Made by a program: the position numbers and the translations under genes
In this document: positions 2,212 to 18,991 of the stretch, piece by piece
Position numbering within the stretch: position 1 is the first letter of the stretch
Layout: every line of letters starts with the position of its first letter
The notes under the pieces: model-generated
Told to the model about the DNA's origin: nothing
Seen by the model: the letters and a program-made list of their open reading frames with translations, nothing else
The model's database searches: none
From: Deltaproteobacteria bacterium
GTDB lineage: Bacteria; Desulfobacterota; Desulfobaccia; Desulfobaccales; 0-14-0-80-60-11
Assembly (NCBI GenBank): GCA_026388765.1
Contig: JAPLJC010000166.1
Span: 1-34,114 of the forward strand
Reading direction: 5' to 3'
Length of the DNA: 34,114 nucleotides

Positions 2212-3021
2212 TCAGACTGCCTTCGAGTGGGGTTCGGCTTCCGGGGGAGTACTCTCACCCAGGAGGCTGAAAGGTGGCTGCTCGTGGCTGCCCCCGGTTT
2301 CATAGCCAAAAAGGTCTTTGACGATGCCATTGACTTTGCGATACAGGAGCCGCAAGGGAATATCCACCGGGCAGGCCTCTTCGCACAAGCCGCAGTCGAC
2401 GCAGCGGCCGGCCATGTGCACCGCCCGGATCAGATGGAACAGGGGGACCTCCGGCGGCAGGCCGCCGGTAGCCACCAAATCGTTATTCTCCAGGGAACAC
2501 TCCTTACAAAAGCACACCGGGCAGATATCCCGGCAGCCATAGCATTTCAGGCACTTCTGGAATTCGTACATCCACCGGGAATAGAGGCTCTCCTGATCGA
2601 ACTGGTCCATTTGGGCCACCGACATATTATTGTCGACGCCCAACTCCAGTTTGACCGCGCCGTAGGTCTGGGGCTGCAGGGTGGAGCAGGCTGCATGTTT
2701 CCGGAGTGGGGAGGGACAACAATTGACCTCTAGAATCTGAATTTGCCCGGGGGATATCTGTTGGTGCACTGTCAGGACATTCACGGCGCGCTGGTTGCAG
2801 TCGCGGCCCAAGATGCCGATCTTGAGCGCCGGTTTGATCGCCAGGATTTCGGTGGCCAGCTTTTCCAGGGCATAGCGGGCCGGACTGACGATCAATTCCC
2901 CGAGTTCCGCCAAATTTTCTTTACTGAAGGCATGGGGCAACGGATGGCCATCCACCTGTTTATAGCCCAGGAAGAGGTCCACCTTGCCGGTTTCCAGCCA
3001 GTCACGCACTTTATCCTTCAT
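2212..3021 (-). CDS. FdhB/FrhB-like iron-sulfur protein (coenzyme F420 hydrogenase/dehydrogenase beta-like, 4Fe-4S)
   Basis: 269 aa with KCLKCYGCRDICPVCFCKEC and CVDCGLCEEACPVD cluster motifs; directly upstream of fdhA and almost contiguous with it. Confidence 0.75.
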   Translation of the reverse strand: MKDKVRDWLETGKVDLFLGYKQVDGHPLPHAFSKENLAELGELIVSPARYALEKLATEILAIKPALKIGILGRDCNQRAVNVLTVHQQISPGQIQILEVNCCPSPLRKHAACSTLQPQTYGAVKLELGVDNNMSVAQMDQFDQESLYSRWMYEFQKCLKCYGCRDICPVCFCKECSLENNDLVATGGLPPEVPLFHLIRAVHMAGRCVDCGLCEEACPVDIPLRLLYRKVNGIVKDLFGYETGGSHEQPPFSLLGESTPPEAEPHSKAV

Positions 3022-3579: not shown

Positions 3580-6500
3580 TTAGCCAACGGCCAAAGCGCT
3601 CTTGATTTGCGCGTAAATTTGCCGGTTGTTGAAGCCCATCAGCATCGGCGCCTCGCTGGGACAGGCGGCCGCACAGGCGCCGCAGCCTTTGCAGAGGGCT
3701 TCGTTGACCACCGCCACTCCCTGTCCCTGATCCATCCCAATGGCCCCAAAAGAGCAGACATTGACGCAGATCTGGCAGCCGGAACATAACTCAGGGGCGA
3801 TCCGGGATATCAGACCGCTCACCTTGATGCTGCCCTTAGACAGGACGGTGGCCGCCCGGGCCGCGGCAGCCTGCGCCTGGGCGATGCTCTCCTCCAGGGG
3901 CTTGGGATAATGGGCCATGCCACAGAGAAAGATGCCGTCGTTGGCGAAATCCACCGGCCGCAACTTCTGATGGGCCTCCAGGAACCAACCATCGCCGTCC
4001 AGCGGCACCCGAAACATCTGGGCCAACTTCTGATCCTGGTGGGACTCGATGGCGGCCGCCAGCACCAGGAGGTCCAATTCCAGGCTTAACGGGCGACCCA
4101 GGATGGGATCGGTAAAGGCAAGGGCCAGACCGCCATCCCGGCTGGTCACCACCGGTTTGGCCTCCAGGGAATAGCGGGCGAACAGCACCCCCTCTTCCCG
4201 GGCCGCCTGGTAGAGATCCTCCCGGGGGCCATAGGTCCGCAGATCACGATACAGGACCACCACCTGGGCCTCCGGCCGGCGGCGTTTCAGCAACAGCGCC
4301 GCATGCACCGAGTGGGTGCAGCAGACCTTGGAACAATAAGGGTGGTGGTCATCCCGGGAACCGACGCATTGAATAAAGGCGATGTTTTCCGCCTCATCCA
4401 GGCGCTTATCCTTGCTCCGCAGCAGTTCGTCCAACTCGAGTTGGGTCACCACGGCAGGGTTTTCCCCATAGAGATACTCTTGCGGCCGGTATTCCTTGGC
4501 CCCGGTGGCCAGCACCGCGACGCCGTGCTCGATAACCTGGGAGGCGCCGTCACTGGACACTTGGGTCTGGAAATTGCCCACAAAGCCTTGCACCTCAGTC
4601 AATGAGGTATTGAGATGCACCGTCACCTTGGGATCAGCCTGCACTTCCTGGGCCAGCGCCTCGACAAATCTGCCGACGTCCTCACCTTTATAGGTGTGGA
4701 GCAGCCGCCGGGCCGCGCCACCGAGGACGTCTCCCTGTTCCACCAGATGCACGGGAAAGCCTTGCCGGGCCAGATTGAGGGCGCTGGTCATCCCGGCCAC
4801 CCCGCCGCCCACGACCAGGGCGGCCTGGGTCACCGGCAATTCCGCCTCATTGAGTGGGCTGAGGAGGGCGCTTTTGGTCACGGCCATGCGCACCAGGTCT
4901 TTGGCCTTGCGGGTGGCAATGTCAGGGTTATGGGCATGCACCCAGGAGTCCTGATTGCGAATATTGGCCATCTCGAACAGGTATTTGTTCAAGCTGGCAT
5001 TATTCATGGTTTCCTGGAAGAGGGGCTCGTGGGTGCGCGGAGAGCAGGCGGCCACCACTACCCGGTTCAGCCCCTTTTCGGCAATGATTTCGCTCATCTT
5101 ATCCTGCGTATCCTGGGAGCAGGTGTAGAGATTTTCTTCCACGTGCGTCACATGGGGCAGGCGGCGGGCATATTCCGCCACCTCGGGGACCCGGATGATC
5201 CCGCCGATATTGGTGCCGCAGTTGCAGATGAAGACCCCGATGCGCGGCGGTTCTTGGGCCACGTCCCGCTCCGGGGGATAGGTCTTCTTTTTGACCAGGG
5301 CGAAGCGCTGGTCGCTCAATTCGCTGGCCGCGGCCCCGGCCGCCGCCGAAGCCTCCATGACCGAATAGGGGATGTCTTTGGGGCCGGCCGCGGCGCCGCA
5401 CACGTAGATGCCGGGCCGGGAGGTGGCCACCGGGGCGAACGAAGTGGCGTCCGCGAAACCGTGGCGGTCTAATTCCACTCCCAGCTTGTCGGCCAGGGAG
5501 CGGAAAGCCTCCGGCGCTTCCAAGCCGATGGACAGAACTGCCAGATCAAAAAATTCCTTCTTCAGTTCGCCGCCTTCATCCACGTAGGAAATTTGCAACT
5601 GCTTGCTTTCCGGGTCCGGCATCAACAGGGAGTGCACCCGGGAGCGAATGAAGCGCACCCCGGACTTATGCTGGGCATTTTGATAAAAGCGCTCGAAATC
5701 CTTGCCGTAGGTGCGCATGTCCATGAAAAAGATGGTGGTCTCCAGATCGGGGGCATGCTCCTTGGCGATGACCGCCTGCTTAATGGCATACATGCAGCAG
5801 ACGCCGGAACAATAGGAATGGGTGCCGGGCTTGGTGTCCCGGGAACCGACGCACTGCAGCCAGGCAATCTTTTTGGGCTCGGCTTTGTCGGCGGGCCGGA
5901 TGAGATGGCCCCCGAACGGCCCGGAGGCGCTCAAGATACGCTCAAACTCCAGGCTGGTGACCACGCTGGGCAGGTGGCCGTAGCCGTACAAGTTATTGGC
6001 CTTTTTAGGGTCAAACGGCTGAAAACCCGTGGCCAGCACCACCGCCCCCACCTGCAGGGTCAGGTCCCGGCCCTGGTCTTCTAAGTTGATGGCGCCGCTG
6101 GGGCAGTGTTTTTCGCAGGCCTTGCAGGTTCCTTTCTTAAAATAGATGCAGTTATCCGCATCGATGGCATATTTCAGGGGCACCGTCTGGCTGTATCTGA
6201 CATAAATCGCCTTGCGTTTGGCCAGGCCCACGTTGTATTCATCCGTCACCTTTTTCGGGCATTTCTCGGCGCAGAGCCCGCAGCCGACACATTTGTCCAT
6301 ATCGACATAGCGTGGTTTCTGCTTCAACGTCGCCGTAAAGTTACCGGCTTCGCCGGAAACGGACTCCAACTCGGTAAGGGTCAAAAGCTCGATGTTTAAG
6401 TGCCGACCGCACTCAACCAACTTGGGCGAGATAATTCACATGGCGCAGTCGTTGGTGGGGAAGGTCTTGTCGAGCTGCGCCATGCTGCCGCCGATGCCGG

Positions 6501-6630
6501 CGCTTTTTTCCGTCAGATAGACGTAAAAGCCCGAATCGGCTAAATCCAGCGCCGCTTGCATCCCGGCAATACCGCCACCGACCACCAACACGGAGCCCCG
6601 CTTCTGTCCCTGGGTAAGGGCCTGACTCAT
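3580..6630 (-). CDS. hdrA: HdrA-like flavo/iron-sulfur protein (long form), selenocysteine-containing; UGA at complement(6436..6438)
   Basis: Same-frame ORFs 6436..6729 and 3580..6420: ...[66 protein letters not shown].... UGA replaces the second Cys of the HdrA NDCAMC motif. ATG at 6630 preceded by AGGAGG. Hairpin UUGAGUGC-GGUCG-GCACUUAA downstream. C-terminal half has a second [22 protein letters not shown] fold and two 4Fe-4S motifs. Confidence 0.95.
6393..6438 (-). promoter_or_regulatory. SECIS-like element of hdrA (3580..6630)
   Basis: TGA ATTATCTCGCCCAAGTTGG TTGAGTGC GGTCG GCACTTAA; 8-bp stem with one G-U pair, GGUCG loop, 27 nt from UGA to loop. Confidence 0.8.
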
Positions 6631-6833: not shown

Positions 6834-9800
6834 CTAGATCAGGCCCAAGGCGGCTTCGACCTGTGCCGTTAACTGCGGCATGGAAAAGCCGGCCACATAG
6901 ATCCCCTGCTTCGGACAGGTGGCCATGCAGGAACCGCAGCCTTTGCAGAGGATTTCGTTGATCTCCACCGTCTTTTTGACCTGGCCCTGTTTCATGTATT
7001 CCATCAGGGTGATGGCCTGGAAGGGACAGCCATCCACGCAGAAGGCGCAGCCATCGCAATTTTCATCTATCGGGATGGAGACATGGGCATCCAATTCCAG
7101 ATGATCTTTGGACAGGAGGGTGGCAGCGCGGGCGGCGGCGGCCAGTCCCAGGCGGATCGAATCTTCCAGGGGCTTGGGGTTGTGGCAGAGGCCCGCCAGA
7201 AAGATGCCTTCGGTGGCGCAGTCCACCGGCCTGATCTTGGCGTGGGCTTCGGAGAAGAAACCTTCCTCATTGAGCGCTACTTTATACATTTCCGCCAGCT
7301 GGGTATTGTCCCGGGGCACGATGGCGCTGGCCAGGGTTAAAAGGTCCACCGTCAGCTCCAGCGGCCGCTTAAGGATATGATCCGTCACCCGGATCCGCAT
7401 CCGGCCGTCCACCTCCTCCACCTGGGGCGGGTCCTCCAACTGATAGCGGATGAAGATCACTCCTTTCTGCAACGCCTGGTGATACAGAAACTCTCGTTCG
7501 CCATAGGTCCGCATATCCCGATAAAGGATATAGACCTCCATCTCCGGGTTAATTTCTTTGAACTTGAGGGCGTTGTCCACGGAACTGGTGCAGCACACCC
7601 GGCTGCAATAAGGCCGCTCCGGAATGCGGGAACCGACGCATTGAATGAAGGCCGCCGCCTGGGCATTCTTGATCAGGCGGCTATTGGTGGCGATCTCCCT
7701 ATCCATATCCAGGGAGAGAAAAACATTGGGATTTTTTCGATATAGATACTGCCCGTTGGGGCGATAGGGTTCGGCGCCGGTGGCCAGCACCACTACGCCG
7801 TGTCGGATGAGGGCGCCGTTGGAGAGGCGCGATGTGAAGTTGCCGACGGACCCCCCGGCCTCGATCACGGTGGCCTCGAAGTGGACGTGGATATGGTCGT
7901 GTCTTTGGACCCGATCGATCAGTTCATGCAGATAGGGTTTGACCTGCTCGCCCCTCCAGGTGGTGTGCAGGTTAAGGGCGTGGCCGCCCAGGCGGTCGGT
8001 GCCTTCCGCCAGGTCCACTTCATAGCCTTGGTCCGCCAAGGCCAGGGCCGTGGTCATCCCCGAAACCCCGCCCCCCACCACCAGGGCCTTGTGGGTGACC
8101 CCGACCGTGAGGGAGTTGAGAGGTTGCAGTAACCTGGCCTTGGCCACCGCCATGTTGACCAGATCCCGGCATTTAGTCGTGGCCGCATCTCGATTGTATT
8201 GATGGACCCAGGTGCACTGGTTGCGAATATTGGCCATCTCGAAGAGATACTTGTTCAGGCCGGCGTTGCGCAGCATGTCCTGGAAGATCGGCTGGTGTGT
8301 GGTCGGGCTGCAAGCCGCCACCACCACCCGGTTGAGATTATGCTCCCGGATCCTCTCGATCATCAGAGTCTGAGCGTCCTCCGAACAGGTAAAAAGATTT
8401 TCCTGGACATACGCCACATCAGCAATGGACCGGGCATATTCCGCCACCGCCGGCACATCGGCCACCCCGCCGATATTGATGCCGCAGTTACAGATAAATA
8501 CCCCGATCCGGGGTTCCTCCCCAGCCACCTCCTGTTCAGGCGGGTAGACTTTCTCTTTCAGCAGGCTGCCCCGGGCCGCCGCCAGTTGGCGGGTGGCGGC
8601 GGCGGCGGCGGCGCTGCCCTCCCGGACCGATTGGGGGATATCCTTGGGACCCGTAACCACGCCGCAGGCATAGATGCCGGGGCGGGAAGTGGCGACGGGC
8701 TCGAAGCAGCTATGCTCCACAAAGTTATAGCGGCTCAGTTGCACCCCCAGGGTTTCGGCCAACTCCCGGGTGGCGGGGGAAATCACCATGCCGGTGGCCA
8801 GCACCACCAGGTCGAAGGTTTCAGCGGCGACCTTACCGTCCTCAGTGACGTAAGACAGCTGTAAGTCCCCGCTATCCCCCAAGGCTTCCACGCTGTGGAT
8901 GCGGGAGCGGACCAGGCGCGTCCCCTGGCTGGCGGCGCGTTGGAAGTATTTCTCAAAATCTTTGCGGGGCGTCCGCATGTCCATATAAAAGATGGCCATG
9001 TCCAACTGCTGGCCGATATGTTCCCGGGCGATGAGGGCCTGCTTGAGGGAGGTCATGCAGCAGACCGACGAGCAGTAGGCCTGCGAGCCCTCCCGGTTGC
9101 TGCGCGACCCCACGCAGAGAATCCAGGCGATCTTTTTGGGCTCCCGGCCATCCGAGAGCCGCTGGACATGACCCTGGAACGGCCCGCCGGGGCTCAGGAA
9201 GCGTTCAAATTCCAGGGTAGTTACTACATTGGGGTGGGTGCCGTAAAGATAGTTGAGGCCCCGGGGATCGAAGGGCTGAAAACCGGTGGCCAGAATAACA
9301 GAGCCGACCTCCAGTTCCGTGACTTCCGGGGTCTGAGCGTGGTTCACCGCGCCGGGCAGGCAGGCCGCCACGCATTCCATGCATTCGGAGCAGACGCCGC
9401 AGTTGAGACAGCGGCCGGCCTCGGCCCGGGCCGCCTCGGGGTCCAGGCCCAGGCAGATTTCCTGGAAGCCCTGACCCCATTCCTCCAGGGGCAAGGTCGG
9501 CATGGGAGAACGCCGCTGTGTGGGATTGTTCTTGGGGATCGGCTGCCATTTGCCACCGGCCGGCAGCCGCCGCGGGAACTGGCGCCCCTCCTTCAGGTCC
9601 ACCCCTCGCAGGTAACGGTCGATGGAGACGGCCGCCTCCCAGCCGTCCGCGATGGCGGCGATGGCCACATACGGGCCGGTGACGACGTCCCCGCCGGCGA
9701 ACACCCCTTTGCGGGTGGTGGCCAGGGTGTCGGGGTTTGCCTTGATCAGGCCCCGGGGGGTCAGCTCAATGCCGTCGGCCACGGTGAGAAAGCGTAAATT

Positions 9801-11297
9801 GGAGCTCCGTTGGCCAATGGACATGATGACGATCTCGGCGTCCAGGGTGTCGAGCTGGTCCTCGAAATATTTGGGGGCGAAATGTCCTTGCTCGTCAAAG
9901 ATCTGAGCTACTTTCTTCAACCAAACGCCCTTGACCTTGCCGCCATCGGGGAGAATCTGCTTCACTCCCCAGCTGTGCCTGATTTCGATGCCTTCTTTTT
10001 CAGTCTCTTCCAATTCCCAGGGCGAGGCCGGCATCTCGTCGGGTCCTTCCAGGCAGACGATGGTCACCTGGGAGGCGCCCTTTCTCAGGGCGATGCGGGC
10101 GGCGTCAATGCCTACGTTGCCGCCGCCGATCACCACCACCTTTTTGCCGGCGGTGGGGGCGATACCGGTGGTGGCCACTTCCTTCAGATAATCCGCCGCC
10201 CAGACGACGCCCTCGGTCTCGATGCCGGGCACCCTGATGTGGACGGACTCCTGGCAACCGACGCTGATAAAGACGGCGGGATAACCGTCCCGGACGATGA
10301 GATCGCTGACGGTGCGCTCGGGAGTGATGGGCGAGTTACAACGGATATCCACCCCCAGCCGCTGGATGTAGTCGATCTCCCGCTGCAAAACCTTCCGGGG
10401 CAGCCGGTATTCCGGTACGCCGTAGCGTAGCCAGCCGCCGGGCTCCGCCGCCGCCTCAAAGATTATCGGCCGGTAGCCCATCAGCGCCAACTGGTAGGCG
10501 CAGCTCAGCCCGCCCGGGCCGGAGCCGATGATGGCCACCTCTTCATCGCGTTTGTCGATCTCCGGGACCGGCAGGGTGGCCCAATCCACCTGGTCGGCCA
10601 CGAACCGCTTCAAGGCGCAAATGGACAGCGGTTCATCAAGGTCCTGCCGCCGGCAATTGCCCTCGCAGGGATGCGGGCAAATGCGGCCCAGGGTGCCGGG
10701 CAAGGGCAGCTTTTCCATGATGACTTTGAGAGCTTCCGCATATTTTCCAGCTTTGATCAACTGGATATAACCTTGCGCATTGACGTTGGCCGGACAGGTG
10801 CGCACGCATGGCGCCCGGTCGAACTTCTTGATGGCAAAGGTGGCGGGAATGGCCTGCGGATAGGAGCGATAAATGGCCTGGCAATTGTTCAACCCCAGGT
10901 TGAACTCATCCGGGGTGCTGACCGGACAGGCGCGGGCGCAGTCGCCGCAGCCGGTGCACTTGGAGGCGTCGACGTAGCGGGGTTGCTTCTTCAAGGTAAC
11001 CGTGAAATTACCCTCCTCACCGGTTACTTCCTGCAATTCGGTGAGGGTATGCAGCTCAATGTTGATGTGCCGGCCGACCTCGACCAGCTTCGGAGAGATA
11101 ATTCACATGGCGCAGTCGTTGGTGGGAAAGGTCTTGTCGATCTGCGCCATGGTGCCGCCGATGCTGGGGCCCTTCTCTACCAGGTGGACATAAAACCCTG
11201 AATTGGCTGCATCCAGCGCGGCTTGCATGCCGGCGATACCCCCGCCGACTACCATGACTGCGCCGCACTTTTCCTCCGGAGAATGGCTCGCCTCCAT
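6834..11297 (-). CDS. HdrA-NfnB/GltD-HdrA fusion, selenocysteine-containing; UGA at complement(11103..11105)
   Basis: Same-frame ORFs 11103..11372 and 6834..11036: ...[67 protein letters not shown].... An internal domain with [17 protein letters not shown]...[14 protein letters not shown]...[22 protein letters not shown]...[22 protein letters not shown] is GltD/NfnB-like. ATG at 11297 preceded by GGAGG. Confidence 0.93.
11063..11105 (-). promoter_or_regulatory. SECIS-like element of the hdrA-nfnB fusion gene
   Basis: TGA ATTATCTCTCCGAA GCTGGTC GAGGTC GGCCGGC; 7-bp stem with two G-U pairs, loop beginning with G, 21 nt from UGA to loop. Confidence 0.65.
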
Positions 11298-11457: not shown

Positions 11458-12396
11458 TCAGGCTGCTCCTATTCTTAGTTTAGCCCCCGCAGCCGGCAGC
11501 AGGCAGGAAAGGACAAACATGAGCTGCTTCTGGGTCAGCTCGCCGATATGCTCATTCAGCCATTTCAAATCGCCGGACAGGATGGCGGTCTTGGCCTCGA
11601 AGGACAGGTTATAGGCCTCCAGGGCCTCGGTGTCCAGGTCCATCAAGGCCCGGCGAAAGTCCTGGTCTTCGGAGGTGCGGCTCAGCACTCGAAAGACTTC
11701 CCGCTTTTGCATCTCGAGCGCTTCCTGGTCCACCGCCTCCGCCCGGAGTTCGGCCCCGGAGCTTCTCTTCCAGTTTCTGCTCAGGATCGGCAAGAGAAAC
11801 TCCTGGACCAGAGGGCGCCAACCCAACTCCGGATAATGGCCGTAGACATCATCGATGACGGCGCCGCCATCCGGCAGGGTGACGCCCACTGCGGATTCCA
11901 TGAGGTTCAACAAGCGGTGGGCCTCATGATCGATCCAGGCGGTGTTCATCTCTCCGGAGAGCAAGTTGTTCAGATTGCGCTGGAGGTTGTTGGGCTTGAA
12001 CAAAAACAGCCAGCCTTCTCCATAAGGGTCGTCGTGGATCAGGCCGGGCCGCTGCTGCACCTTGGGGTTGATGGCTTCGATCACGCCATCCACCGGCGCC
12101 AGGAAGGGAGCCTTGTGTCCCTGCCTGACCAAGGCCGTACAGATGTGATCCTGATAATAGATCTTGCCGCGGTCGGGTAACTTCAGCCCGTCCGCTGGCC
12201 CCAGGATTTTCTGGGAAAAGTCATCCAAGCCTACTCGCACCTGGCTGTCGCTTTCGAGCACAGCCCAGGCATGGCCGCGGTGCAGATAATAGGCGCTGGT
12301 GGGCACCTGGAAGCCAAAGACTTCTGCCATCTGGGGTCGTGACGGCGGGGTAAAAACCTCCCGCTGATCTTTTTCTCCGTTATTTTGTTTGGCCAT
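11458..12396 (-). CDS. GcvH-like (lipoyl-domain fold) protein with a C-terminal extension
   Basis: [16 protein letters not shown]...[14 protein letters not shown]...[14 protein letters not shown] matches the glycine cleavage H protein pattern; about 100-aa extra C-terminus; AAGGAG RBS; first gene of the selenoprotein operon. Confidence 0.8.
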
Positions 12397-12464
12397 CACC
12401 GTCTCTCCTTTACGAATTACAGCCTGCGGATTATTGCCCTTCAGCTATGCTGCCTTATGGCAAA

Positions 12465-12479
12465 GCAAAGGCTGTGCCA
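12465..12479 (-). promoter_or_regulatory. Sigma54 (-24/-12) promoter for the selenoprotein Hdr/Fdh operon
   Basis: Reverse strand TGGCACAGCCTTTGC versus consensus TGGCACGNNNNTTGC; about 70 nt upstream of the GcvH-like start. Confidence 0.75.
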
Positions 12480-12600
12480 GTTCCCGAAAAATTATCTATC
12501 TATTGGAAATAGCTATAAAAAACGTGGCTCTCACCTTTACCCGGCAGAGGCAACCTTATGTTTAATAATGCAACAGACAAGATTCGAAATTAAATAACTT

Positions 12601-12643
12601 ATTAATATATCTAATTAATTAGCTGTTGGATATTTCAACAATG
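12601..12643. repeat. Inverted-repeat arm 1, candidate enhancer-binding-protein site
   Basis: ATTAATATATCTAATTAATTAGCTGTTGGATATTTCAACAATG matches the reverse complement of 13057..13099 at 38 of 43 positions; contains dyad TGTTG-N7-CAACA. Confidence 0.75.
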
Positions 12644-13056: not shown

Positions 13057-13099
13057 CATTGTCGAAATATCCAACAACTAATTAACCAGAAATATTAAT
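13057..13099. repeat. Inverted-repeat arm 2, candidate enhancer-binding-protein site
   Basis: Reverse complement ATTAATATTTCTGGTTAATTAGTTGTTGGATATTTCGACAATG; 38/43 match with arm 1. Confidence 0.75.
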
Positions 13100-13230
13100 G
13101 GGTTAATCTAATACCAAATATTGCCTGTCGAATTATTAGACACTGTGGTTAGCTCCGGCTGAGCCGGGGCGGAAGCAGGGGTGCACTATATTAATAGTAA
13201 AATCAATCAGATATATCGATATCCCGTAAC

Positions 13231-13245
13231 TGGCACGTAGTTTGC
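13231..13245 (+). promoter_or_regulatory. Sigma54 (-24/-12) promoter for the plus-strand GcvH-like genes
   Basis: TGGCACGTAGTTTGC is an exact match to TGGCACGNNNNTTGC; about 50 nt upstream of the ATG at 13296. Confidence 0.85.
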
Positions 13246-13295
13246 GTATGGCCTAGGCAAAGAGTTTCGCAAAGCTGCCAAAGGAGGGACAGGTC

Positions 13296-13919
13296 ATGTC
13301 TCAGCAAAATACTGCAGTAAAAGATCAAATGGCGGAAGTCTTCGGCTTCCAGGTGCCCACCAGCAATTATTATCTGCACCGGGGCCACGCCTGGGCCGTG
13401 GTCGAAAGCGACAACCAGGTGCGGGTAGGCTTGGATGACTTTTCTCAGAAAATCTTGGGTCCGGCCGAGGAGCTCAGGCTGCCCGAGGTCGGCAAGGTCT
13501 ACTACCAGGATCACCTCTGCCTGGCGGTGTTCAGACAAGGACGCAAAGCTTCCTTTGAGGCGCCGGTGGATGGTGTGATCGAGGCCATCAACCCCAAGGT
13601 GCGCCAGAACCCCCGCCTGATCCACGACGATCCTTATGGGGAAGGCTGGCTGTTTTTGGTCAAGCCCAACAACCTCCGGCGCAATCTGGAGAACCTGTTC
13701 TCCGGCGAGGCCAATGCCACCTGGATCAATGAAGAGTCCCACCGCTTATTGAACCTGATGGACACCACGGCCGGCGTCACCCTGCCGGACGGCGGCACCG
13801 TCGTCGATGATGTTTTCGGCCACTATCCGGAGCTGGGCTGGAAGCCTCTGGTCCAGGAGTTTTTCTTACAAAACCTGACTAAAAGGGGTTTCTTGCCCGT
13901 TGCGAAACGGCAGAAATGA
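13296..13919 (+). CDS. GcvH-like protein
   Basis: 207 aa, [44 protein letters not shown]...[14 protein letters not shown]...[13 protein letters not shown]; close paralogue of 11458..12396; AAAGGAGGG RBS. Confidence 0.85.
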   Translation: MSQQNTAVKDQMAEVFGFQVPTSNYYLHRGHAWAVVESDNQVRVGLDDFSQKILGPAEELRLPEVGKVYYQDHLCLAVFRQGRKASFEAPVDGVIEAINPKVRQNPRLIHDDPYGEGWLFLVKPNNLRRNLENLFSGEANATWINEESHRLLNLMDTTAGVTLPDGGTVVDDVFGHYPELGWKPLVQEFFLQNLTKRGFLPVAKRQK

Positions 13920-14006: not shown

Positions 14007-14900
14007 ATGGTAAACAAAGTTAAAGAGGGCAAAAAGCCCTGCATCTGGATGGAAGCCGGCGTGATCGATTTCAAGATCTGCAATCATGAGTTCGATTGCT
14101 CCACCTGTGAATTCGACCGGGCCATGACCGAAACCGCGGCCCAGAACCTGGCCCTGTGGAAGGCGGCTGAACCGACGACAGGCCAGAAAGCCCAGGTCTT
14201 CCTCCGGCAGGGGCAGAGGCGGCCGCGCCCCAGGGTGAAGAAATGCCGCCACATGGCCAGCGGCAGTGCCCCGGCCTATCTCTGCCGTGAGTGTTGCTTC
14301 GAGCAACTCCTGGAAGATCAAGCGGAGCTCCTGGCCGCACCGGATCGACCCAAGGTGCAGCAAGTCTTCGGCTTCGCGGTGCCGACCTCCAGTTACCTGC
14401 ATCGGGGTCATACCTGGGCAGCCCTGGAGAACACCGGCCGGGTGCGCATTGGCCTGGACGACTTTTCCCAAAAAGTCCTGGGCCCGGCCGACAAAATGAA
14501 ACTACCCAGCCCCGGGCAGGAATTTCATCACGACGCTGTGGGGCTAACCCTGGTCCGTCAGGGGAAAAAGGCTGCCGTCCTGGCGCCTTTGGATGGCATC
14601 ATCGAGGCGGTAAATCCCAAAGTCCGGAAAAGCCCCGGTTTGGCCCATGACGATCCGTACGGCGAGGGCTGGCTGTTTGTGGTCACCCCGACCAATTTAA
14701 AGCCGGACCTGGAGAATATGCTCTTTGGCCAGCGCAATGTCTCCTGGATCGAAAATGAATCCCACCGGCTGCTGGGGCTGCTGGAATCTTCGCTGGGGGT
14801 CACTCTCCCCTCCGGGGGGACGATCATCGACGACGTCTACGGCCACTATCCGCAATTGGGCTGGGAGCGTCTGGTGCAGGAGTTTCTCCTTACCGCTTAA
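14007..14900 (+). CDS. GcvH-like protein with N-terminal Cys-rich domain
   Basis: N-terminus PCIWMEAGVIDFKICNHEFDCSTCEFDRAM and CRHMASGSAPAYLCRECCFEQLL, followed by a GcvH-like domain ([16 protein letters not shown]...[12 protein letters not shown]). Confidence 0.82.
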   Translation: MVNKVKEGKKPCIWMEAGVIDFKICNHEFDCSTCEFDRAMTETAAQNLALWKAAEPTTGQKAQVFLRQGQRRPRPRVKKCRHMASGSAPAYLCRECCFEQLLEDQAELLAAPDRPKVQQVFGFAVPTSSYLHRGHTWAALENTGRVRIGLDDFSQKVLGPADKMKLPSPGQEFHHDAVGLTLVRQGKKAAVLAPLDGIIEAVNPKVRKSPGLAHDDPYGEGWLFVVTPTNLKPDLENMLFGQRNVSWIENESHRLLGLLESSLGVTLPSGGTIIDDVYGHYPQLGWERLVQEFLLTA

Positions 14901-14902
14901 AG

Positions 14903-15463
14903 TCAATGAATCAGCCCCTTGTCCCGGAGGTAATCGGCCAGCAGGACCTGGCAATATTCACAGAAGGCCAGCTTCTTCCGGTCCAATTTTTCCAGGTTGG
15001 CGGAAAAGCCCATGAGACAGGCGTCTTGCCGACAATGGCCCAGGCCGAAGGTGTGCCCCAATTCATGCAGGCTCAGCTGGATGAGGCGTCTCAAGTAGAC
15101 CTGCCTCGGCGGCATGACGCCGTCAGTGTCCCCCCGGGGCCGCGCCACTGAGATGATGGCGGCCTTCCCATCCAGTTGGGCTTCTCCAAAAACAAAAGTG
15201 AATATCGGGATGTAGAGGTCCACCGCGGTAATCCCTAAGATCCGAAAAGCCTCCGAATTATTTTCGGCTAATAAGTATGCCAATAGCTGGGTGGAATGGT
15301 ACTGCTGCCGCACCACGTGGTAGGTGTGTAGGGGTAAGGGTTTGGGGCGGAGCACTCGCACCGGCAGGGAAAGAATTTTGGCGATGGCGGTGCGCAATCG
15401 CCTCAGGATCTCCGGATCAATCGGGCCCAAGGCCATCAAGCCCAAAAATGGACGGTGTGACAT
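14903..15463 (-). CDS. amzA: Archaemetzincin-family zinc metalloprotease
   Basis: HELGHTFGLGHCRQDACLMGFSANLEKLDRKKLAFCEYC matches HExxHxxGxxHC-x4-CxM...CxxC. Confidence 0.9.
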   Translation of the reverse strand: MSHRPFLGLMALGPIDPEILRRLRTAIAKILSLPVRVLRPKPLPLHTYHVVRQQYHSTQLLAYLLAENNSEAFRILGITAVDLYIPIFTFVFGEAQLDGKAAIISVARPRGDTDGVMPPRQVYLRRLIQLSLHELGHTFGLGHCRQDACLMGFSANLEKLDRKKLAFCEYCQVLLADYLRDKGLIH

Positions 15464-15509: not shown

Positions 15510-16418
15510 TCAAGGCGCCAGGCCGTATTTCTTGATTTTGTGGTAGAGCGTGGTGCGGTTGATGCCGAGAACCTTGGCGACGTTGGAGATGTTACCGCCT
15601 TCTGCGGCCAGTACCCGGGCGATGTGTTGGCGCTCTATCTCCTCCAGGGATAATTTCCCCATTTCTGCCGCCCCACCGGCAGGAATGACAAAAGGCAAGT
15701 CGCCAAGTTTGATCTGCCGGTCTTTGCCCACCACGACCGCTCGTTCTATGGCATTTTCCAGCTCCCGGATGTTCCCCGGCCAGGGATACCGCCGCATCGC
15801 TTCCAGGGCCTCCGGATGGATGGAGTCGATCTTTTTGTTGGTCTCCGTGGCATAGCGTCTCAGGAAATGCTCGGCCAGCAGCGGGATATCTTCCGGCCGC
15901 TCGCGCAGGGGCGGCACCTGGATGTGGACCACGTTCAGGCGGTAGAACAGGTCCTGCCGGAAGGTTTTGAGCCGGATGCCTTCCTGGAGGTCTTGGTTGG
16001 TGGCGGCGATGACCCGAAAGTCGCTATGCAACGAGACGGTGCCGCCCACCCGGGTGAATTCCCGGGTCTCCAGGACCCTGAGCAGATCGATCTGCATCTT
16101 CATGGAGATGTCACCCACTTCATCGAGGAAGAGGGTCCCGGCATGCGCCATCTCCAACCGGCCTTTCTTGGTATATTTGGCGTCGGTGAAGGCGCCCTTT
16201 TCATGACCGAAAAGTTCGCTTTCCAGGAGATGTTCCGTGAAAGCCCCGCAGTTGATGGCAATAAAGGGGGCATAGCACCGCGGACTCTGGGCATGGATGG
16301 CCCGGGCCACCAGTTCTTTGCCCGTGCCGGTTTCCCCGGTGATCAAGACGGTGGCGTCGGATTGGGACACATCGACAATGGTTTCGAACAGCTTGAGCAT
16401 GACCGGAGCCTGGCCCAC
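15510..16418 (-). CDS. Sigma54-dependent transcriptional activator, AAA+ and Fis-type HTH domains
   Basis: GETGTGKELVARAIH (Walker A), ESELFGHEKGAFTDA (GAFTGA-like loop), GTLFLDEVGD (Walker B), NVAKVLGINRTTLYHKIKKYGL HTH. Reading frame continues upstream as ...ITRFENLVGQAPVM. Confidence 0.93.
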   Translation of the reverse strand: MGQAPVMLKLFETIVDVSQSDATVLITGETGTGKELVARAIHAQSPRCYAPFIAINCGAFTEHLLESELFGHEKGAFTDAKYTKKGRLEMAHAGTLFLDEVGDISMKMQIDLLRVLETREFTRVGGTVSLHSDFRVIAATNQDLQEGIRLKTFRQDLFYRLNVVHIQVPPLRERPEDIPLLAEHFLRRYATETNKKIDSIHPEALEAMRRYPWPGNIRELENAIERAVVVGKDRQIKLGDLPFVIPAGGAAEMGKLSLEEIERQHIARVLAAEGGNISNVAKVLGINRTTLYHKIKKYGLAP

Positions 16419-16425
16419 CAGGTTT

Positions 16426-16710
16426 TCAAAACGCGTAATCGTCGCTACCGTGTGCCGTCATCATGACAATGGTCGTGTCGGCATCGGTTTCCTTGATTTT
16501 CTTGAGCAGGGTAAGGCCGTCCATCTCCGGCATTTTGACGTCGAGGAGCATGATGTCAAAATGGTTCTCCTGAGTCATGGCCAAAGCCGCCGGACCGTTG
16601 GCCGCGGTTTCCACCAGATAGCCGTCCTGTTGCAGCCAGCCCCTTAAAGACTCGCGGATACTCAATTCGTCATCCACCACCAGGATCTTAATCTTTTTAT
16701 GCGGCAGCAC
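16426..16710 (-). CDS. Response-regulator receiver domain, truncated (N-terminal part of the same NtrC-like regulator, offset by +1 frame)
   Basis: MLPHKKIKILVVDDELSIRESLRGWLQQDGYLVETAANGPAAL...DIMLLDVKMPEMDGLTLLKKI...TIVMMTAHGSDDYAF then TGA; lacks the KPF segment; next frame immediately encodes FENLVGQAPVM. Confidence 0.85.
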   Translation of the reverse strand: MLPHKKIKILVVDDELSIRESLRGWLQQDGYLVETAANGPAALAMTQENHFDIMLLDVKMPEMDGLTLLKKIKETDADTTIVMMTAHGSDDYAF

Positions 16711-18991
16711 TATCTTCTCCAGGTTTAAAGGCAGGCAGACGGATAGTAAACGTGGTCCCTTGTCCCACGACGCTGTCTACTTTGATGGCACCCCGGTGAT
16801 CCCGGATGATGCCGTACACCACGGAGAGCCCCAATCCCACCCCGGAGCCAGCCTTTTTGGTCGTATAGAATGGTTCAAAGATCTGGGAAAAAGATTCTTT
16901 GGGGATGCCCACTCCGGTGTCGGCCACCCGCACCACCACCTCCCGGCGCCGGGAATTTTTCGTCGTCAAAGTCAGAGTCCCGCCCTCGGGCATGGCGTCC
17001 AGGGCGTTCAAGACGAGATTCAAAAAGGCCTGTTTCATCCAGCCCTGATCCGCCAGGACCGGGGCCAGGTCCGGAGCCAGCTGGCGTTCTACTTTGACCC
17101 CCTGCAGCCGCATCTGGTACTCGGTCAGTGATAAAGTCTGCCCCAGCAGGGCGTTGAGATCCACCGGTTTAAATTCCGGCTTGTTCTTGCGGGAAAATGC
17201 CAGAAGGTTGGACACGGTTTTGCTGACTCGGAAGGTCTCATTATAGATAATACCGAGATAATTGTGCATCTGGCCCAATTCTTCCTCGCCGGGAGTCCCG
17301 TTTGCCAACATGCGCTGCATCAATTTGGTGAAGTTCAGGATACCGGTCAGCGGGTTGTTGATCTCGTGCACCACGCTGGCGGATAATTTCCCCAAAGAGG
17401 TCATTTTGTCATCATGGAGCATCCGGGTCCGGTCCGTGATTTCTTTGGTGATGTCCCGGGACAGGTCGATCACGCGGTGGACCCGTCCTTCCTCGTCAAA
17501 TAGCGGGTGACAGACCACGTGAATATAATGCTCCCGGCTGTCCTTGTCGAAGTGGACGTGGGTGGCCGAGGCTGCTTTGCCGGTAGCCACCGCGTCCTTC
17601 AAGGGACAGGGGTGATCGGGACTGGTGCAGGGGCTCTCCAGGTGGTGCGAGACCTCATAACAGTGTTTGCCCACCACTTCTTCCCGTTTCAACCCCACCA
17701 TTTCCAGCAAAGCCCGGTTGACCTCGATGATGCGGTAATCCAGATCGATCACCATCATGTGATCTTCGATGCCGTTGACGATCGTCTCCAGGAAAACCTT
17801 GCTCTTGGTCGCCTGTTTGAGCAGCAGGCGGGTCTTATCCTCAGAATCGTGCAGGGCCTCCGCCAGTTGCTGGTGGGCGGTGACGTCTTTAATGACCTCG
17901 ATCACCCTTCTCCGCTTGGCTTCCGGCGGACACAGGGGCGACATGGTGATCTCGTCGTACCGCGTCATCCCGTCGGGGCCCGCATAGGACTGCAAAACCC
18001 GGCCGGTCACACACTCTTTGATGACTTGCGGCAGAGGACAGACCAGGCCCTGCCGGTCGCAGGGCTCGTCCAACTGATGAAAGACCTCGTAGCAGTGTTT
18101 GCCGATCAACTCCCCGGCTTTCTTTTGGAAGCGGTTGAGAAAGGTTTGGTTGACTTCCTCGATGGTATAATCGGGGTTCAGCACTAGCACCGGGTCGGGC
18201 AGGTAATCGAAGATTCTCTGAAAGTGGCTGCGTTGATCGGCTAATTTGATCTCGCTTTCCACCTTGAGGCGCAGCCGGTCTTCCTCTTTTTTGAACAATT
18301 CCCAAAATAGCCGGGATTGGATATGGTCGACAATCAGGGTGTGGGCCGGTTTCTGTTGGATGACGCTTTCCCGCACCTGCGGGTCCCCGGTGAGTTCGAG
18401 GATCAGGTCGGGATTTTGCTCCAGGAGGGCGGCGGCTTCCCCAAACGTCGGAATACCCAATTTCTGCGCCAGCACCATCCCCGAGGCCTGGGGATCGGGA
18501 TCGGCCACCCCGATGATGTTAATCCTTTGCCGATGGCGCAGCCCTGTGGCCATCTGCTGCAGAACCCTTTGACAGCCTCTGCCGCCCCCGACGATGCCGA
18601 TTTTTAAGGGGAAATATTCTTCGGTGAAGGATAAACCATTGGAGACGATGTCCCAAAAATCCTTCCCGGTAGGAGGCCGATCGCAATTGAGAACCGACAC
18701 CCCCTCCGGACAATGCGCCTGGAGTTCCTGGGTAACCTCCGGCCGACCGGTGGCGTTGAGGAGGATGTCAAGTTCAGGGAGTTGCAATAAGTCGTTAAAA
18801 TTAAGCGAAACAAAAAGATTATGCCGGTAGGCATACAAGATGCCGGGAGCTTCCGGGTTGAGATCGGCCACTCCCACCACCCGTAAGGGTTGATCATCCC
18901 TGCGGGCCGGCACCAAGGCCTCCAGGATGGCCAGGCCTTGCCGGCCGGCGCCCACCAGACCCAGGCGATATATCTGCTTGATAGGACTCAT
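16697..18991 (-). CDS. Histidine kinase with two N-terminal Rossmann-like domains and two Cys-containing PAS domains
   Basis: LGLVGAGRQGLAILEAL and IGIVGGGRGCQRVLQQM nucleotide-binding motifs; PAS motifs HCYEVFHQLDEPCDRQGLVCPL and HCYEVSHHLESPCTSPDHPCPL; HisKA VVHEINNPLTGI; HATPase VGIPKES...GSGVGLGLSVVYGI. Confidence 0.92.
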   Translation of the reverse strand: MSPIKQIYRLGLVGAGRQGLAILEALVPARRDDQPLRVVGVADLNPEAPGILYAYRHNLFVSLNFNDLLQLPELDILLNATGRPEVTQELQAHCPEGVSVLNCDRPPTGKDFWDIVSNGLSFTEEYFPLKIGIVGGGRGCQRVLQQMATGLRHRQRINIIGVADPDPQASGMVLAQKLGIPTFGEAAALLEQNPDLILELTGDPQVRESVIQQKPAHTLIVDHIQSRLFWELFKKEEDRLRLKVESEIKLADQRSHFQRIFDYLPDPVLVLNPDYTIEEVNQTFLNRFQKKAGELIGKHCYEVFHQLDEPCDRQGLVCPLPQVIKECVTGRVLQSYAGPDGMTRYDEITMSPLCPPEAKRRRVIEVIKDVTAHQQLAEALHDSEDKTRLLLKQATKSKVFLETIVNGIEDHMMVIDLDYRIIEVNRALLEMVGLKREEVVGKHCYEVSHHLESPCTSPDHPCPLKDAVATGKAASATHVHFDKDSREHYIHVVCHPLFDEEGRVHRVIDLSRDITKEITDRTRMLHDDKMTSLGKLSASVVHEINNPLTGILNFTKLMQRMLANGTPGEEELGQMHNYLGIIYNETFRVSKTVSNLLAFSRKNKPEFKPVDLNALLGQTLSLTEYQMRLQGVKVERQLAPDLAPVLADQGWMKQAFLNLVLNALDAMPEGGTLTLTTKNSRRREVVVRVADTGVGIPKESFSQIFEPFYTTKKAGSGVGLGLSVVYGIIRDHRGAIKVDSVVGQGTTFTIRLPAFKPGEDSAAA

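Follow-up and report, generated by a model that had tools for sequence, protein, structure and literature searches.

The window (the whole 34,114-nucleotide stretch of DNA analysed) encodes a soluble sensor histidine kinase of 764 aa that begins with two tandem Rossmann domains, a cofactor-binding fold better known from metabolic enzymes. Its domains and their conservation, the pairing of its gene with that of a response regulator, and nearby promoters and palindromes are evident in the DNA. Taking the proposal as a whole, it seems somewhat probable that this NtrB-type kinase senses cofactor state through the Rossmann pair and, via the NtrC-type regulator, controls operons for GcvH-like proteins, Hdr proteins and formate dehydrogenase. 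The kinase itself is of a known kind, and it is the input that is unusual. In outline, the two N-terminal domains of a cytoplasmic kinase would sense a metabolic cofactor state, most likely that of NAD(H), and the helix leaving the second domain would pass this state through two PAS domains to the HisKA/HATPase_c core, with PAS2 probably the site of a metal or other redox centre that may provide a second redox input. His542 would hand its phosphate to the regulator encoded just downstream, which would bind paired palindromes and activate the sigma-54 promoters of the divergent operons, with the outcome that a thiol/formate electron-transfer system would be matched to the redox state of the cell. 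In this scheme we infer that NAD(H) is the ligand, that a PAS domain holds a centre, and in which direction the system responds.

The kinase gene (16697-18991, minus strand) is a single open frame with an ATG start. From the N- to the C-terminus, Pfam and AlphaFold place Rossmann domain 1, Rossmann domain 2, PAS1, PAS2 (both PAS domains matching PAS_4), a HisKA dimerization and phospho-acceptor domain (residues 533-603; 17183-17395, minus strand) and a HATPase_c kinase domain (residues 648-754; 16730-17050, minus strand). The first-pass annotation had proposed a histidine kinase with two N-terminal Rossmann-like domains followed by two Cys-containing PAS domains, and this is borne out; the two glycine-rich segments that it quoted and both PAS Cys motifs lie within the 764-aa frame. 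The core is orthodox, with an intact H-box, N and G boxes, and a phospho-acceptor His542 that is kept in all 19 kinases. The whole architecture is retained in 18 order-level relatives, at 50-73% identity over residues 1-253 (in one of these relatives the frame is broken late), and this conserved layout rules out chance or a mis-framed reading. A membrane sensor is also ruled out, the highest hydropathy over 19 residues being 1.19.

Rossmann domain 1 (residues 5-122; 18626-18979, minus strand) carries the loop GAGRQG and Asp43 at the end of β2, and domain 2 (residues 127-245; 18257-18613, minus strand) carries GGGRGC, Asp164 and an ELTG segment and closes with a helix running on to the PAS domains. 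Pfam recognizes domain 2 as GFO_IDH_MocA at residues 129-198, barely above the cutoff (24.7 bits against 24), and gives domain 1 a sub-threshold match only. Structure prediction by AlphaFold, a check proposed with the first-pass annotation, shows two β-α-β Rossmann halves, with moderate confidence only for the tandem pair (pTM 0.48). Invariant in 19 of 19 sequences are G14, G16, G19, D43 and A48-P49-G50 of domain 1, and G135, G137, D164, A169, G171, E199-L-T-G202 and D222-H223 of domain 2; GxG, the β2 Asp and APG/A-x-G are kept by both domains in the 18 relatives. A GxGxxG loop had been claimed for each domain. Domain 1 has it, but domain 2 of the window has Cys instead of the third Gly. In domain 2 this position can be Cys, Ala or Gly, which is unusual for a dinucleotide loop and speaks against the NAD(H) reading. 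In a tree of the domains the first domains form one group and the second domains another, and thus the tandem is older than the radiation of the order. The protein is not a catalytic oxidoreductase, since it has no catalytic domain: domain 2 provides the NAD-binding Rossmann domain of the Gfo/Idh/MocA family, and PAS and kinase domains lie where that family would have its C-terminal catalytic domain.

When 395 sampled genomes of the phylum were searched with a profile built from the tandem, 110 had matches, mostly to a single copy resembling domain 2. The domain is N-terminal in 61 sampled frames, 44 of them with HATPase_c, 6 with GGDEF and 3 with sigma-54 AAA+, while 7 are stand-alone. These stand-alone copies are about 130-150 aa long and have no attached output. 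No dedicated Pfam or NCBIfam model for the domain turned up; Pfam matches are scattered over Rossmann families (Gfo/Idh/MocA in 15 and NAD_binding_3 in 10 of 63 members, E<0.01), and NCBIfam calls about half of the family acetaldehyde dehydrogenase, with the example member falling below the cutoff. The most conserved positions across the 63 diverse members are GxG, the β2 acid and the ELTG turn. The β2 end is acidic in all 63 (Asp in 57, Glu in 6), Thr is found in 59, and the third Gly of the loop is Cys (GxGxxC) in 44. Tentatively, and with rather less than even confidence, we suggest that the GxGxxC Rossmann domain may be a general, unnamed cytoplasmic NAD(H)-reading input module of the phylum, fitted to kinases, diguanylate cyclases and sigma-54 activators, in which the loop Cys is perhaps a second redox switch. 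A phylum-wide module common to these three outputs is what would surprise a specialist, and no description of it, or of Rossmann-type kinase inputs, was found in the open-access literature. A search of plasmids gave no matches, and a match in Rhodospirillales was dismissed as an ordinary Gfo/Idh/MocA enzyme.

The model of a single domain is confident (pLDDT 87, pTM 0.80). Its best solved fold matches are the NAD domains of acylating acetaldehyde dehydrogenases (1nvm, TM 0.57, E 2e-4), followed by PYCR1 structures, NADH complexes among them, and a profile search of solved sequences returns 1nvm again (E 3e-7). A β2 acid is the classical mark of NAD over NADP specificity. Dinucleotide binding is plausible because of the Rossmann fold, the acidic β2 end throughout the family and the best matches being NAD domains, and the type of ligand that the sequence points to is NAD(H) rather than NADP(H). 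Moderate confidence can be placed in NAD(H) as the ligand of the pair. At its end the model has a long helix (residues 100-121) that heads towards the PAS domains and would be a natural path for the signal. KinA counsels caution: NAD+ binding was proposed for one of its PAS domains, but in a later study the kinase was not regulated by NAD+/NADH (PMC5552956), which shows that NAD(H) in bulk does not always make a good signal.

Other readings place the signal elsewhere. PAS1 (approximately residues 250-372; 17876-18244, minus strand, boundaries approximate) has invariant Cys300, Cys311 and Cys318, and PAS2 (residues 401-516; 17444-17791, minus strand) has Cys444, Cys455, Cys462, His449, His478, His480 and His495 invariant in 19 of 19 kinases, as well as Cys494 in 17 of 19. 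A motif beginning HCYEV had been described for both domains; its Cys residues hold up, three being invariant in each domain, but the leading His is not conserved. A Cys-bound cofactor in these domains is possible. An Fe-S cluster, haem or metal in PAS2 could even be the main redox input, with the Rossmann pair only tuning the response. The invariant Cys/His set favours such an arrangement; however, PAS domains of unrelated architecture often have a similar Cys motif and the sequence assigns no particular cofactor, and we regard it as doubtful.

Alternatively, the Rossmann domains could bind another nucleotide cofactor, CoA or acyl-CoA, in which case the kinase would report acetyl-CoA supply and not NAD(H). 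Acylating acetaldehyde dehydrogenases, the best structural relatives, use NAD+ and CoA. A cultured relative, Desulfobacca acetoxidans, oxidizes acetate through the acetyl-CoA pathway (PMC3156406), which would suit this reading. It is nevertheless unlikely, as the β2 acid of all 63 family members is well matched to a ribose whose 2',3'-diol is free and should be unfavourable to CoA with its 3'-phosphate. Also improbable is that the Rossmann domains no longer bind a ligand and form a scaffold for dimerization or docking, with the signal entering via the PAS domains. The predominance of Cys at the third Gly in the wide family, the three Cys and four His of PAS2 and the action of the KinA PAS domains in oligomerization (PMC5552956) are in keeping with a scaffold, but a pure scaffold would have no need of the GxG, β2 acid and ELTG turn that are so well conserved. 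Sensing of NAD(H) by the Rossmann pair is the reading that we prefer.

In general plan the system resembles the NtrB and AtoS kinases with their NtrC-type regulators, sharing the PAS-HisKA-HATPase_c arrangement, the adjacent regulator, paired upstream palindromes and sigma-54 promoters, but the tandem Rossmann inputs and the predicted GcvH-like/Hdr/formate-dehydrogenase targets set it apart. The NAD domains of Gfo/Idh/MocA proteins, homoserine dehydrogenase and acylating acetaldehyde dehydrogenase likewise consist of a Rossmann half with a glycine-rich loop, and the acidic β2 end is a feature that NAD-type Gfo and homoserine enzymes share. Unlike in those enzymes, the Rossmann domains here lack a catalytic domain, are fused to signalling outputs and are mostly GxGxxC. 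The redox repressor Rex also uses a Rossmann domain to feed gene control, and solved Rex is a weak sequence match (E 0.025). However, Rex is itself a repressor that binds DNA and has a winged helix, whereas the output here is a kinase and its Rossmann domain begins at residue 5, with no N-terminal winged-helix domain. KinA PAS-A is part of a soluble kinase proposed to read NAD+, but it is a PAS domain instead of a Rossmann one, and its role as an NAD+ sensor was contested (PMC5552956). This is the only claim of an NAD+-sensing kinase that was found, and the open-access papers searched described no histidine kinase whose NAD(H) input has a Rossmann fold. The Rossmann input, modular and widespread and with a regulon predicted for it, makes it possible to test directly if cofactor state is read by two-component and c-di-GMP signalling, and provides a handle on the control of Hdr/formate electron-transfer genes in acetate-oxidizing sulfate reducers and their relatives.

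An NtrC-type regulator gene adjoins the kinase gene on its downstream side in 19 of 19 loci. In this assembly it is broken, 149 bp being absent relative to the closest relative with a change of frame, which could reflect either a genuine deletion or an error of assembly. The N-terminal fragment (16426-16710, minus strand) has a truncated receiver that stops after 94 codons, and the remainder, with the sigma-54 AAA+ domain and Fis-type HTH (15510-16418, minus strand), is out of frame with it. The window copy is therefore not a single-frame receiver, AAA+ and HTH protein; the regulator is full length in the relatives whose contig covers the gene. Beside the regulator lies a gene for an archaemetzincin-family protein (14903-15463, minus strand), and archaemetzincin genes are present at 12 of the 19 loci. 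GcvH-like genes are nearby in 15 of the 19. At five loci a formate dehydrogenase gene ends directly upstream of the kinase gene, preceded in four of them by ferredoxin, HdrA and GcvH-like genes.

The divergent GcvH-like genes of the window are headed by sigma-54 promoters. On the minus strand the -24/-12 element is consensus (TGGCACAGCCTTTGCT, 12464-12479), with palindromes 79 bp (12559-12575) and 144 bp (12624-12640) ahead of its -24 element; on the plus strand it is near-consensus (TGGCACGTAGTTTGCG, 13231-13246), with palindromes 88 bp (13126-13142) and 154 bp (13060-13076) ahead. Scanning for TGGC[AT]Y[AG]N4TTGC[AT] found 14 consensus sites in 320 kb, where shuffles gave an expectation of 0.3, and 11 of the 14 lie 0-330 bp ahead of GcvH-like genes. 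The 17-bp palindrome TGTYGGATWWTCCRACA occurs upstream of these promoters in several genera, 63-92 and 131-165 bp before the -24 element and commonly as a pair some 65-75 bp apart. This genome has seven further consensus sigma-54 sites, and none of them has the palindrome. Genome G024 has it at just one of 14 sites, the GcvH promoter beside the kinase, and G019 has it additionally ahead of two genes at the same cluster, one HdrC-like and the other rubrerythrin-like. A strict form of the pattern has just two copies in the 3.7-Mb genome, and both lie in the intergenic region between these promoters; neither copy served as a seed for building the motif, but some circularity remains, as the strict pattern was written after the local matches were seen. 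The palindromes are predicted to be sites for this regulator, the link being one of position and conservation.

The predicted minus-strand target operon begins with a GcvH-like protein (11458-12399) and continues with a 1400-aa GltD-HdrA fusion (6834-11036), an HdrA-type protein with an in-frame TGA that is likely to encode selenocysteine (3580-6630), a ferredoxin-like 4Fe-4S protein (2212-3021) and the formate dehydrogenase alpha subunit (149-2209). On the plus strand the predicted targets are a GcvH-like protein (13296-13919) and another with an N-terminal extension (14007-14900). The first-pass annotation saw in the kinase a suitable input for control of the neighbouring redox operon, and such control is well supported by the conserved gene order, the sigma-54 promoters and the paired palindromes found only there. 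We consider it highly probable, on this genomic evidence, that the kinase/regulator pair controls the GcvH-like/Hdr/formate-dehydrogenase operons.

Some features of the predicted target proteins can be added. The in-frame TGA of the formate dehydrogenase gene, also likely to encode selenocysteine, is at codon 142 in the context HCARLUHSSTVVGL, the usual selenocysteine position. The GltD-HdrA fusion suggests NAD(P)H-linked electron flow in its operon. All three GcvH-like proteins, encoded beside Hdr genes, have Lys at the likely lipoyl site, and the trio is reminiscent of the lipoate-binding proteins of the Hdr-like sulfur oxidation pathway (PMC6067878).
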